Shown here: piece by piece, positions 7,719 through 63,487 of the stretch | Numbering within the stretch: the stretch's first letter is position 1 | Layout of the letters: each line of letters opens with the position of its first letter | Source of the DNA: Candidatus Saccharicenans sp. | GTDB lineage: Bacteria; Acidobacteriota; Aminicenantia; Aminicenantales; Saccharicenantaceae | Reading direction: 5' to 3' | Length of the DNA: 64,000 bases | NCBI GenBank assembly: GCA_026414545.1 | Contig: JAOAIU010000028.1 | Span: 1 to 64,000 of the forward strand | The notes under the pieces: model-generated | The model's database searches: none | Seen by the model: the letters and a program-made list of their open reading frames with translations, nothing else | Told to the model about the DNA's origin: nothing | Position numbers and translations under genes: made by a program

Positions 7719-7950
7719 TCAGAAAGTTCTCTCCGGGGTCAGGACAGCCTATCGGGTCAGGGGCCAGCTAACGACCGGGCGCTCACCCGCTTTAGTCTGC
7801 TTGCAACCAGCCAGGTCGGTAGCCATTCCCCAGGGGATAACTCTATTTTCAATCTAACTGCTGGCTCGGCCAAGATGGGCAATCCAATATAACCTGTGGA
7901 TATTAAATATATTTACCCTGTTTCTGAATATTTCCCCGGCCTCTTCTGTC

Positions 7951-8024: not shown

Positions 8025-8414
8025 TTGAAAGAAAACACTTTTGACAGTAAGTTCCGGTTTATCATAGTGGCAGCCCAGAGAGCCAAGCAGCTTCTCAAGG
8101 GCGGCCGCCCCAAGATCAAGTCCCGTCACCGCAATCCCATTCGCGTGGCCCAGGAAGAGCTTAAGTCCGGGGCCATCAAGTACGAGATTCTGCCGTTCAA
8201 GAGAGAAGAGGGCCTGGAAGAGGAAGAAGTGCTGCTGACCGAAGCCATTCCTCTGGTGGCCGGAGAATCAGAGGCCGAAGCCGAGTATGAAGGTCAGGAA
8301 CTGGAAGAAGTAGAGGAAGAAGGACTGGAAGAGGAAGAGCTGGAAGAAGAAGAAGAGTTGGAAGAATTTGAGGAAGAAGAGGAAGAGGGCGGCTTCGACG
8401 AAGAAGACAAATAA
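8025..8414 (+). CDS. rpoZ: RNA polymerase omega subunit with long acidic tail
   Basis: 129 residues from TTG at 8025, preceded by AAGGAG ten bases upstream. The frame is open from 7896, but that part has no RBS and covers the promoter. Residues 5-57 (DSKFRFIIVAAQRAKQLLKG, then NPIRVAQEELKSG) match the omega core, which helps assemble the beta-prime subunit. From about residue 58 the chain is almost purely Glu/Asp with scattered Leu, Gly and Phe, ending GGFDEEDK; E. coli omega is 91 residues, so this tail of about 65-70 residues is unusually long and acidic. The last 121 bases overlap, on the opposite strand, the 3' end of the CYTH gene. Standing alone on the plus strand. Confidence 0.85.
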   Translation: MKENTFDSKFRFIIVAAQRAKQLLKGGRPKIKSRHRNPIRVAQEELKSGAIKYEILPFKREEGLEEEEVLLTEAIPLVAGESEAEAEYEGQELEEVEEEGLEEEELEEEEELEEFEEEEEEGGFDEEDK

Positions 8415-8926
8415 TCTTTCTGTCTTTTTTCCTTAATCATCTGCACGTAATCAAGCTTGATAAAGTCTTTTCTGGAAAATCCCAGTCTGGCCGCCAGCTT
8501 GACGATATCGCTTCTTTTCCCTTCCAGTTCGATAAAGTTGCCGACCTCGGTTTCATCCAGGCAGATCTTAACCCGGTCCTTCCGCAGGAGCATCCTTTTT
8601 TTCCGGTATTCAAATACCGGTCGCAGGCCGAGTTTCTGCAGGATTTTTCTGAAATGTCTGAAATTCTTTACCTCGCTTTCGTATTCTTCGCGGACTTTGA
8701 ATGACCTGGACTTCAGAGGTTGTCCCTTGAAGGTGAGGAAAACTTTGCGGCCTATTCTTCTCAGACGCAGGGCCTGACGGGCTTTTTCCAGCCGGCCGTC
8801 GGCATAATCGTAAAGGGCATTCCACTCCCGGTACCAATCCCGCTCCACCAGGCACCCCAGGTCCAGCAACCTTTGCCTGGCTTCTTTCAGACTGGAGACC
8901 CTGAGCTTGACTTCAGTTTCTATCAT
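8294..8926 (-). CDS. CYTH-domain protein with poly-Ser tail
   Basis: 210 residues. The N-terminal MIETEVKLRV holds the ExExK motif of the CYTH fold (class IV adenylate cyclase / thiamine triphosphatase / inorganic triphosphatase), followed by charged strands with alternating Arg, Lys and Glu (LRLRRIG, ECLDETEVGNFIELEG-type region) that line the triphosphate tunnel. The domain ends near residue 170; the last 40 residues are nearly all serine and lie antisense to the acidic tail of rpoZ, with the first stop only at 8294. Third gene of a tatD - polyprenyl synthase - CYTH operon, 15 bases after the synthase. The substrate cannot be decided; many such proteins hydrolyse organic or inorganic triphosphates. 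Confidence 0.8.
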   Translation of the reverse strand: MIETEVKLRVSSLKEARQRLLDLGCLVERDWYREWNALYDYADGRLEKARQALRLRRIGRKVFLTFKGQPLKSRSFKVREEYESEVKNFRHFRKILQKLGLRPVFEYRKKRMLLRKDRVKICLDETEVGNFIELEGKRSDIVKLAARLGFSRKDFIKLDYVQMIKEKRQKDYLSSSSKPPSSSSSSNSSNSSSSSSSSSSSPSSSTSSSS

Positions 8927-60340: not shown

Positions 60341-62608
60341 ATGGGCCGAGGAAAGAATAAAAGGATTGACGGGCTCAAGATGAGAAGAGTTAGAGCGCTT
60401 AAGTATTTTCTGGCCACTTTTCTGGCCCTGTTTTTTATTGCCGGCCAGCCGCCCGAGTTCGGTCGGGAAAGCAATTTTTTCCAGGGTTTTATGATACCCC
60501 GACCGGTGGTCAGGATCGGTTTGATGGTCGGGTTGAAACAGGCAGCTATCAGTTCCTCTTCCGGAATGAAAATCTATGAAATCGGGCGGGAATACAGGCA
60601 GCTGGCCGAAGATGTCGAGGAAGTAGTCATCAAGGTCGAGAAAGAAAAGCTAACCGAAAAGTTCGTCTTGTTGATAACCCAGACCAGTGACTACCAGGAA
60701 GCCGAGCTCCTGGCGGCTGAACTCAGCCAGAAGTTGCCAGGACAGGTCATTGTGGAAGAAAGGGTGGAGGCTGGAACCAAACTCTATCAGCTGAAATACG
60801 GGGAATTCCTGACCCGCGGGCAGGCCCTGGAATCCATCAGGCTGCTGGATAGCCTCGGCTACCGGGATGTCTGGATCATCAGAGAAATCGTCAGCCTGCC
60901 CGAGCCGGGCAACATCTGGCTACAGGTGGACCATAAGCTTCAGTCCTTCAATAAAGAAGCCGACCTTTATTTCATCCCGGCCTTTCCCGAGAGCTTCCTC
61001 AAGCTCAACGACCGTAGCTACCGCGGCATTTTCCAGCTCAAGAATACCGGACGCGGGCTGGCTCTGATCAACATCTTAAACCTGGAAGATTATCTTAAGG
61101 GGGTCGTACCGCTGGAAATGTCGCCCGGGACTTTTAACGCCCTGGAGGCCTTGAAGGCCCAGGCCGTAGCCTCCAGGACTTATGCCCTTAAGAATCTGGG
61201 AAAGAACAATAGCCTGGGGTTTGACCTGACCGATACCCAGAGCTCCCAGGTCTATGGAGGCCTGTCGGCCGAGCACCCTCTGAGCAACCGGGCAGTGGAG
61301 GAAACGGCCGGGGAAGTTATTACCTATAAGAATGAACTGATCAATGCCCTTTATACCAGCACCTGTGGCGGTATGACCGAGGATGCCGAAAACATCTTTT
61401 CCGGCCGCCCGGTTTCTTATCTGAAGAGTGTCAGCTGCACCCACGAAAAACAGCCCGAATGGCGCCTGGAGACTTCCCGGGCTTATCCAGGGATCAGAAT
61501 AAAAGGTCGTGACGTGCTGGCCGAGGTCTTTCCTCTGCTGGCTGCGGGAATAGTTTCGCCCAATTCTCCAGCCGATTATTTTGACCAGCCCTCGACCGGG
61601 GAAGAAGTGGCCGGGTGTCTCCAGCGGGTTGACCAGTTCAGAAAAATCAACGACCCTGCAATGAACCCCGGTCTGGAAAAATTGCCCCAGGTTAACTTTG
61701 TGGAACTGGCTCACATCCTGGTAGATTTTTTTGGCTGGCAGGACAAGACAGATTTGCTGCTTCTGCCGGCCGAAATTGAATTTCTGCTCAAGGATCAGCA
61801 GCGCCATAAAGACCTTAAGGAAGCTGACCGCAAGGTTCTGGCTTACCTGCTGCAATCCGGGATATATCCCAGCTATCTCCGCGAGGATAACCTGTTTCGC
61901 CCGGTGACCAGGGCCGAGCTGGCCTTCATCCTGAAAAAGTCGCTGAGCTGGCTGGAAGACCTTTACCACCAGGGTACCTTCCTGGGAAAAAAGGGCGAGC
62001 AACTGGAAGTGATGGAAGGTAACAACCGCCGGGTGCTGTCCTGGCCGGCTGATGGCTATCTTTTGCGCAGCCTGGAGGAGGGCACTTTCCCGGCCAGGTC
62101 GCTGCTACTTCTGGGCGGCGAAAAAATCAGGTGGATAGAAGCTGACGGCCAGGTTCGGTTGCTGGAAGTCCTTTATCCGCCTAACACCAATGTCCTGGAC
62201 CGAAATTCCCGCTACAACCGCTGGAACGTCAGGGTGGCCCGCGAAGAGCTGGAAAAAATCATCCTGAAATCCTATCCCCAGGTCGGGTCGCTTTCTGACC
62301 TCAAGGTTCTGCAGAGGGGCAAATCAAACCGGGTGATTGAGCTGCAGATTGTCGGCGAAAAGGGCACGGTGGTGGTGCAGGGCCTCAGGGTGCGCTGGGC
62401 TTTGAACCTGAAGGATACCCTCTTTTCAATCGACCGCGAATACGACCCTTCCGGCCGGCTGTCGCACTTTGTGTTCAGCGGTCGAGGCTGGGGACATGGT
62501 GTTGGCTTATGCCAGGTTGGCGCTTATGGCATGGCCCTGGCCGGCGCCAGTTACAAAGACATCCTCAGCCATTACTATAAGAACGTAAAGATCGAAAAAG
62601 TCCACTGA
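60341..62608 (+). CDS. SpoIID/LytB-domain protein with SPOR-like domain and inserted SLH-like region
   Basis: 755 residues. The ATG at 60341 or 60380 (the signal peptide MRRVRALKYFLATFLALFF starts at the latter) are both possible; no RBS decides. Order: signal; SPOR-like repeat (about 107-182, FVLLITQTSDYQEAELLAAELSQ); SpoIID with NLEDYLKGVVPLEMSPGTFNALEALKAQAVASRTYAL (catalytic Glu near 258) and TSTCGGMTEDAENIF; an insertion (about 400-680) with SLH-like HILVDFFGW and RPVTRAELAFILKKS; then GRGWGHGVGLCQVGAYGMALAG near 713. SpoIID cuts stem-free glycan strands. Followed by uppP, a cell-wall lipid gene. Confidence 0.85.
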   Translation: MGRGKNKRIDGLKMRRVRALKYFLATFLALFFIAGQPPEFGRESNFFQGFMIPRPVVRIGLMVGLKQAAISSSSGMKIYEIGREYRQLAEDVEEVVIKVEKEKLTEKFVLLITQTSDYQEAELLAAELSQKLPGQVIVEERVEAGTKLYQLKYGEFLTRGQALESIRLLDSLGYRDVWIIREIVSLPEPGNIWLQVDHKLQSFNKEADLYFIPAFPESFLKLNDRSYRGIFQLKNTGRGLALINILNLEDYLKGVVPLEMSPGTFNALEALKAQAVASRTYALKNLGKNNSLGFDLTDTQSSQVYGGLSAEHPLSNRAVEETAGEVITYKNELINALYTSTCGGMTEDAENIFSGRPVSYLKSVSCTHEKQPEWRLETSRAYPGIRIKGRDVLAEVFPLLAAGIVSPNSPADYFDQPSTGEEVAGCLQRVDQFRKINDPAMNPGLEKLPQVNFVELAHILVDFFGWQDKTDLLLLPAEIEFLLKDQQRHKDLKEADRKVLAYLLQSGIYPSYLREDNLFRPVTRAELAFILKKSLSWLEDLYHQGTFLGKKGEQLEVMEGNNRRVLSWPADGYLLRSLEEGTFPARSLLLLGGEKIRWIEADGQVRLLEVLYPPNTNVLDRNSRYNRWNVRVAREELEKIILKSYPQVGSLSDLKVLQRGKSNRVIELQIVGEKGTVVVQGLRVRWALNLKDTLFSIDREYDPSGRLSHFVFSGRGWGHGVGLCQVGAYGMALAGASYKDILSHYYKNVKIEKVH

Positions 62609-62634
62609 AAGATTTCTCCCCACCGGGTCCCGAG

Positions 62635-62663
62635 TTGACAATATCCTCGCACCGTTGTAGATA
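62635..62663 (+). promoter_or_regulatory. Promoter of uppP
   Basis: TTGACA (62635-62640), 17-base spacer, TAGATA (62658-62663), 44 bases before the uppP ATG. Confidence 0.55.
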
Positions 62664-62707
62664 AGTTGTTCGCATCTCGTTAAGTCTGACCGATAAGAGG
62701 CGAAGAC

Positions 62708-63487
62708 ATGAACTATTTTCAAGCGCTGGTGCTCGGTTTCCTGCAGGGTCTGGGGGAATTCCTGCCGATTTCCAGTTCGGCTCACCTGGTTGTCGGCCCC
62801 TATTTTTTCAACTGGAACTACCAGGGGCTGGAGTATGACGTGATGCTCCACCTGGGCACTCTGCTGGCCATAGTGGCTTATTTCTGGAAGGACTGGATAA
62901 AGATAATAGGCGACGGCTTTACCAGGACGAAAGAAAAGGAAGGACGTTTTCTATGGTATGTGCTTCTGGCCACGGCTCCCGGGGCCCTGGCCGGTTACCT
63001 CCTGGAAGAAAAAGCCGAAACCGTCTTCCGTGAACCGCAGGTGGTAGCCGCCAGCCTGATTTTCTTCTCCATATTTATTTTCCTGGCCGACCGGCTAGCC
63101 AGAAACCGAAAGGGATTGGAGGAACTGAACCTGATTGAGGTTCTGCTTATTGGACTGGCCCAGGCCCTGGCCATAGTGCCGGGCGCTTCGCGCTCTGGAA
63201 TGACCATTATGATGGCCCTGTTCCTGGGATACCGACGCCAGGCTGCGGCCAGGTTTTCTTTCCTGCTGGCTACCCCTCTGATCGTGGGCGCGGCCCTGCT
63301 GGAAGTGCCGAAGATAACTCTGTCTTCAATCAACGGTCCTTTTCTGGCCGGTTTCCTGTCTTCAGCCCTGTTCGGTTTTCTGTCGATCGGGTTCCTGCTG
63401 TCTTTTCTCAAGACTAGAAACCTGGTGCCGTTTGTTGTCTATCGCCTGGGGCTGGCCCTGTTGATCCTGCTTAAGTATTTTCTGTAA
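62708..63487 (+). CDS. uppP: Undecaprenyl-diphosphate phosphatase
   Basis: 259 residues with about eight transmembrane helices. GLGEFLPISSSAHL (E-rich signature) and PGASRSGMTIMMALFLG (phosphate-binding) are the hallmarks of UppP/BacA. Recycles undecaprenyl diphosphate at the outer face of the inner membrane for peptidoglycan and related polymers. Its neighbour upstream is the SpoIID-like peptidoglycan enzyme. AGAGGCGAAG precedes the ATG. Full length. Confidence 0.95.
   Translation: MNYFQALVLGFLQGLGEFLPISSSAHLVVGPYFFNWNYQGLEYDVMLHLGTLLAIVAYFWKDWIKIIGDGFTRTKEKEGRFLWYVLLATAPGALAGYLLEEKAETVFREPQVVAASLIFFSIFIFLADRLARNRKGLEELNLIEVLLIGLAQALAIVPGASRSGMTIMMALFLGYRRQAAARFSFLLATPLIVGAALLEVPKITLSSINGPFLAGFLSSALFGFLSIGFLLSFLKTRNLVPFVVYRLGLALLILLKYFL

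Follow-up and report, generated by a model that had tools for sequence, protein, structure and literature searches.

The stretch of DNA analysed here (the window, 64,000 nucleotides from a 2.5-Mb assembly of a Candidatus Saccharicenans sp.) carries two genes arranged tail to tail, rpoZ on the plus strand (8025-8414) and a CYTH-domain gene on the minus strand (8926-8294). rpoZ encodes the omega subunit of RNA polymerase, a protein of 129 aa with an acidic C-terminal tail ending in ...EGQELEEVEEEGLEEEELEEEEELEEFEEEEEEGGFDEEDK. Its true start is most likely the TTG at 8025, with AAGGAG 11 nt upstream, position 7896 being merely the first possible start of the frame. RpoZ matched RNA_pol_Rpb6 in Pfam (PF01192, E 2.4e-8, 34.3 bits versus a cut-off of 26) and scored 21.7 bits with TIGR00690, slightly below the cut-off of 23.6; orthologues were present in every genome of the genus carrying the locus.

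The CYTH gene (8294..8926, 210 aa; class IV adenylate cyclase/triphosphate tunnel family) lies directly after a polyprenyl synthetase gene and starts with ATG, with its own Shine-Dalgarno sequence GGAGAAGG upstream. The product matched PF01928 in Pfam (E 5.4e-18) and reached 67.3 bits with TIGR00318, over the curated cut-off of 57.95, and the closest solved structure was the triphosphate tunnel metalloenzyme 7ns8 (E 9e-14). Residues E3, E5 and K7 of the N-terminal ExExK motif were invariant in 19 sequences. Profile and motif thus identify a class IV adenylate cyclase-like (CyaB) gene with putative cyclase or triphosphatase activity. As judged by their Pfam matches and by the 16 congeners that carry both, the two genes are real and conserved. 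AlphaFold2 modelled residues 1-176 of CYTH as folded, mostly with pLDDT above 90, and residues 181-210 without secondary structure and with pLDDT of 43-57. The serine-rich tail of this protein, DYLSSSSKPPSSSSSSNSSNSSSSSSSSSSSPSSSTSSSS, is therefore predicted to be disordered and to sit outside the CYTH fold.

The original prediction that the two genes share 121 bases on opposite strands at positions 8294-8414 proved exact in coordinates and reading frames when checked against the ORFs. In this overlap the codon positions 1, 2 and 3 of CYTH face the rpoZ positions 2, 1 and 3, respectively, i.e. phase (123:213), in which third codon position faces third. The serine-rich tail (8297..8411, minus strand) is read antisense to the acidic tail of rpoZ. 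That GAA and GAG would read as TCT and TCC was also correct, and in fact any GAN codon of rpoZ (Asp or Glu) becomes TCN, always Ser, in the CYTH frame; a CTN codon for Leu likewise becomes AGY (Ser) when the preceding codon ends in a purine. Stops in the CYTH frame are possible only opposite an rpoZ Tyr codon that follows a codon ending in C or T, or opposite His or Gln codons that follow a codon ending in T. Since stops can arise only at such Tyr, His or Gln pairs, a tail of Glu, Leu, Val, Phe and Gly stays open until the first of them, here Gly(GGT)-Gln: the CYTH stop TGA (8294..8296, minus strand) is formed by the rpoZ codons GGT-CAG (8292-8297) in reverse. At the other end, the 'DY' (or 'DH') of CYTH is the rpoZ stop codon in reverse. 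Here this stop is TAA (8412..8414), and with the preceding base it reads as the tetramer TTAT on the minus strand, which makes CYTH codon 172 TAT (Tyr); 14 relatives carry TTAG, TTAA, CTAG or CTAA there. With TGA as the rpoZ stop, CYTH mostly has His at this place (DH) and in one case Gln.

Comparison of the two 3' ends across Candidatus Saccharicenans (Aminicenantia, Acidobacteriota) covered 16 genomes with the rpoZ-CYTH pair, and in all 16 the genes overlapped, by 121, 118 (three genomes), 115, 112 (three), 106, 97, 94, 88, 25, 22 (two) and 13 nt. CYTH identity to named Candidatus Saccharicenans relatives was up to 93%. The rpoZ stop fell at CYTH nucleotide 513 in 16/16 congeners, so that the spacing is identical, and with 16 independent assemblies in agreement a local sequencing error or a frameshift within the repeat is ruled out. 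A CYTH protein ending at KDY, which would have spoken against the original prediction, occurred in no congener, and none of the 16 had an in-frame CYTH stop earlier than the one inside rpoZ. Three further genomes of the genus, 63-80% complete, were missing both rpoZ and CYTH. The long overlap is basal within the genus, and one subclade (L013, L015, L016, L017) has shortened it. These data confirm a genuine overlap that the whole genus has retained. It exceeds chance both in this recurrence at fixed spacing and in its length. Among 46 convergent pairs in 400 kb of one congener (G010), called with a crude codon-score gene caller allowing up to 50% overlap, rpoZ-CYTH (118 nt) was the longest overlap, followed by overlaps of 47 and 11 nt. 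Elsewhere in the window, an ORF on the minus strand (62507-62851), opposite a 259-aa undecaprenyl-diphosphatase-like ORF, overlaps a 755-aa gene by 102 nt; this ORF is most likely spurious.

A survey of the order yielded 83 loci with adjacent rpoZ and CYTH genes, comprising 40 gaps, 14 four-nt overlaps, two short overlaps in other phases and 27 longer overlaps. All 14 four-nt overlaps were in phase (123:213) with stop/stop tetramers of the TTAG/TTAA/CTAG/CTAA type, and the same phase was found in 26 of the 27 longer overlaps versus 9 of the 40 gapped pairs. On a tree of the CYTH and RpoZ cores, the long-overlap state formed three separate clades requiring three changes, namely the Saccharicenans genus, genus g8 of family f5 and a subclade of family f2. 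Family f4, which has the four-nt state, was placed beside the long-overlap f5 clade (support 76). In the nearest members of the genus's own family (f1 g2-g4), most pairs are separated by 13-21 nt in other phases instead of sharing four nt, so the ancestral state of the Saccharicenans genus is not directly seen. The longest overlap of the survey (L066 in genome G034, family f2) measured 193 nt; there the CYTH frame covers most of the acidic rpoZ tail in antisense and stops at ATT-CAG. The sole longer overlap in a different phase (L080 in genome G023, family f1) measured 23 nt and gave a Pro/Arg tail end (...LIRPCRP). Within this one order the C-terminal tails of RpoZ alternate between strongly acidic and strongly Lys-rich forms, the latter repetitive and of the KPKEK/KPKDK type (e.g. 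L020, L037, L042 and L060).

The RpoZ protein sequence was then kept constant and encoded by random synonymous codons, with 2000 draws in 8 species. No draw gave an overlap shorter than the observed one (P = 1.0 for equal or greater length), and for this genome the Ser fraction of the CYTH tail was 0.76 after recoding and 0.77 as observed. As recoding yields the same Ser content and never a shorter overlap, loss of the CYTH stop opposite an acidic tail is all that a serine tail requires; the acidic RpoZ sequence by itself suffices to keep the frame open and rich in Ser, and neither property is surprising. The deterministic reading of GAN as TCN also displaces the idea that the serine tail is a chance match. 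The tail is thus an automatic consequence of the acidic tail, with no sign of selection for its own sequence. This bears on the possibility that it is a selected, functional part of CYTH, such as a linker or a phosphorylation or localisation tail, for the sake of which the overlap is kept. Twelve of the 16 congeners do have a serine tail of ∼29-40 residues, and the separately evolved long overlaps of g8 (67 and 76 nt) likewise yield serine tails. However, the Ser content does not depart from the level produced by random synonymous recoding, the subclade with the shortened overlap has cut the tail to a few residues, the tail in the f2 clade is short with just ∼40% Ser, and the tail of CYTH is predicted to be disordered. 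We therefore regard a selected function of the tail as improbable.

The position at which CYTH ends behaves differently. In 12/12 long-overlap congeners the CYTH TGA lies at one column of the rpoZ alignment, and the wobble T of that column showed no change although the RpoZ residue varies between Gly, Asp and Thr. Third-base changes averaged three per column and were absent from only two of 99 gap-free columns; among the 31 columns with at least two residue changes, the TGA column alone had no third-base change (empirical P ∼0.02-0.03). In this species 80% of the recoded draws at Gly-Gln ran past the observed CYTH stop, with a median of 340 nt, so that the observed early stop was not reproduced. 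Without its stop, the CYTH frame would run 56 codons further into the antisense of the rpoZ core. Against selection on the stop, a spare one follows after 9-12 nt in two congeners. The invariance of a wobble base that is silent in RpoZ suggests, albeit with modest statistics, that the CYTH frame is translated to this stop and that the stop is under selection. 'Kept under selection' is accordingly supported for the CYTH stop codon, but not for the Ser residues.

The same observations weigh on the view that the long CYTH frame is not realised in the cell, with the mRNA ending or translation being lost before the stop inside rpoZ and no serine tail being made. The CYTH transcript must indeed extend at least 121 nt antisense into rpoZ, and annotated long overlaps are often artefacts (Palleja et al., 2008; PMC2478687). 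However, conservation of the stop's wobble base would be unexpected if the stop were never read, an earlier in-frame stop is absent from all 16 congeners, and every CYTH message lacking a stop codon would need ribosome rescue. A terminator between rpoZ and CYTH was considered as well and rejected, as the minus strand, on which CYTH lies, showed no terminator-like site between 7700 and 9000. An untranslated frame thus appears about as improbable as a functional tail.

As for the direction of the extension, CYTH outside the genus mostly ends at ∼167-181 aa, with gaps or a four-nt overlap, and reaches 199-210 aa in the long-overlap congeners, in which RpoZ has a length similar to that of its relatives. 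The extension is one-way: CYTH grew and RpoZ did not. The reverse history, in which the stop of rpoZ was lost and the gene lengthened into a serine tail that CYTH already had, is equally compatible with the geometry, which alone is symmetric, but is very improbable given that acidic RpoZ tails of similar length occur at non-overlapping loci (L028, L029, L039 and others), that the median RpoZ length from the motif is 118 aa at non-overlapping loci versus 122 in the genus, and that non-overlapping CYTH proteins are without a serine tail.

Geometry, conservation, recurrence, direction of extension and the sufficiency of the RpoZ protein sequence are shown by these results, and we consider it highly probable that this conserved convergent overlap arose when CYTH lost its stop codon. 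The ancestor at each origin would have had two stops overlapping by 4 nt (TTAG, TTAA, CTAG or CTAA), wobble facing wobble. A single change could then have removed the CYTH stop while keeping that of rpoZ, by giving the last rpoZ sense codon a purine end; alternatively, a change of the rpoZ stop from TAA or TAG to TGA would have abolished the CYTH stop only. The ribosome on the CYTH mRNA would continue antisense to the rpoZ tail and presumably translate the new tail, a by-product that is predicted to be disordered and is probably tolerated; selection appears to hold the position where CYTH ends. The shared tract thus looks like a side effect of stop loss and not like a dual code by design.

A four-nt starting overlap by itself fixes the phase. 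With the acidic tails of the long-overlap group, phase (123:213) gave Ser-rich, hydrophilic products (mean GRAVY -0.7), a second antisense phase gave Phe/Leu-rich, hydrophobic ones (GRAVY +1.8) and the remaining antisense phase gave Leu/Pro/Arg-rich ones. Long overlaps occurred only opposite strongly acidic tails, with on average 15.9 D/E and 0.8 K/R in the last 25 residues. The Lys-rich tails of family f6 would read as Phe/Leu in phase (123:213), and no long overlap was found opposite them despite four-nt overlaps at L038, L055 and L067. The pattern fits a filter against hydrophobic tails, although with only three origins the associations with phase and charge rest on three events and not on 26 loci. 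We tentatively propose, as an idea that may well prove wrong, that an acidic C-terminal tail provides a permissive landing strip for the gene that converges on it: only the phase turning Glu and Asp into hydrophilic Ser would be tolerated, the others being Phe/Leu- or Pro/Arg-rich, so that tail charge and stop/stop phase would predict where long convergent overlaps arise and persist, with silent sites held by the neighbour's stop.

Mutation of a stop codon as the origin of convergent overlaps, with the tetramers CTAA, TTAA, CTAG and TTAG, was described by Lillo and Krakauer (2007; PMC2174442), in whose data phase (123:213) made up 47% of all convergent overlaps but only 18%, less than any other phase, of those of 5 nt or more. 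The rpoZ-CYTH pair resembles these in its stop loss, its read-through into the neighbour and the phase of its four-nt class, but differs in that 26/27 long overlaps are in (123:213) and that the neighbour's composition sets the sequence of the new tail. Of 178 convergent overlaps longer than 60 bp, Palleja et al. (2008; PMC2478687) accepted only 54 as putatively true, convergent being the sole orientation with possibly real long overlaps. Here, too, one of the two genes extends beyond the 3' ends of its orthologues. Their study classes such one-sided 3' extensions as misannotation, whereas the rpoZ-CYTH extension is genus-wide with a conserved stop and is hence real, even though their rule would dismiss it. 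Recent de novo protein C-termini formed by stop loss are known from yeast and Drosophila (Andreatta et al., 2015; PMC4494051); there the extension enters noncoding sequence, in contrast to the new CYTH tail, which is read antisense to a coding gene. Text searches for previous descriptions of Glu/Ser antisense tails, or of an acidic tail on RpoZ, returned nothing relevant. Convergent overlap by stop-codon loss is thus already known, and rpoZ-CYTH is an unusually well-documented new case.

In bacteria, long overlaps between genes are frequently put down to faulty annotation. The geometry of the rpoZ-CYTH overlap is conserved genus-wide; such overlaps arose at least three times within a single order, one mutation is a plausible route to them, and the stop of the second gene shows a sign of selection at a position that is silent in the first. 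The case is a warning that a low-complexity tail on a protein may be a by-product of what the other strand encodes, and it yields a rule, open to testing, on the antisense frames that are safe for a gene to enter at its neighbour's end.
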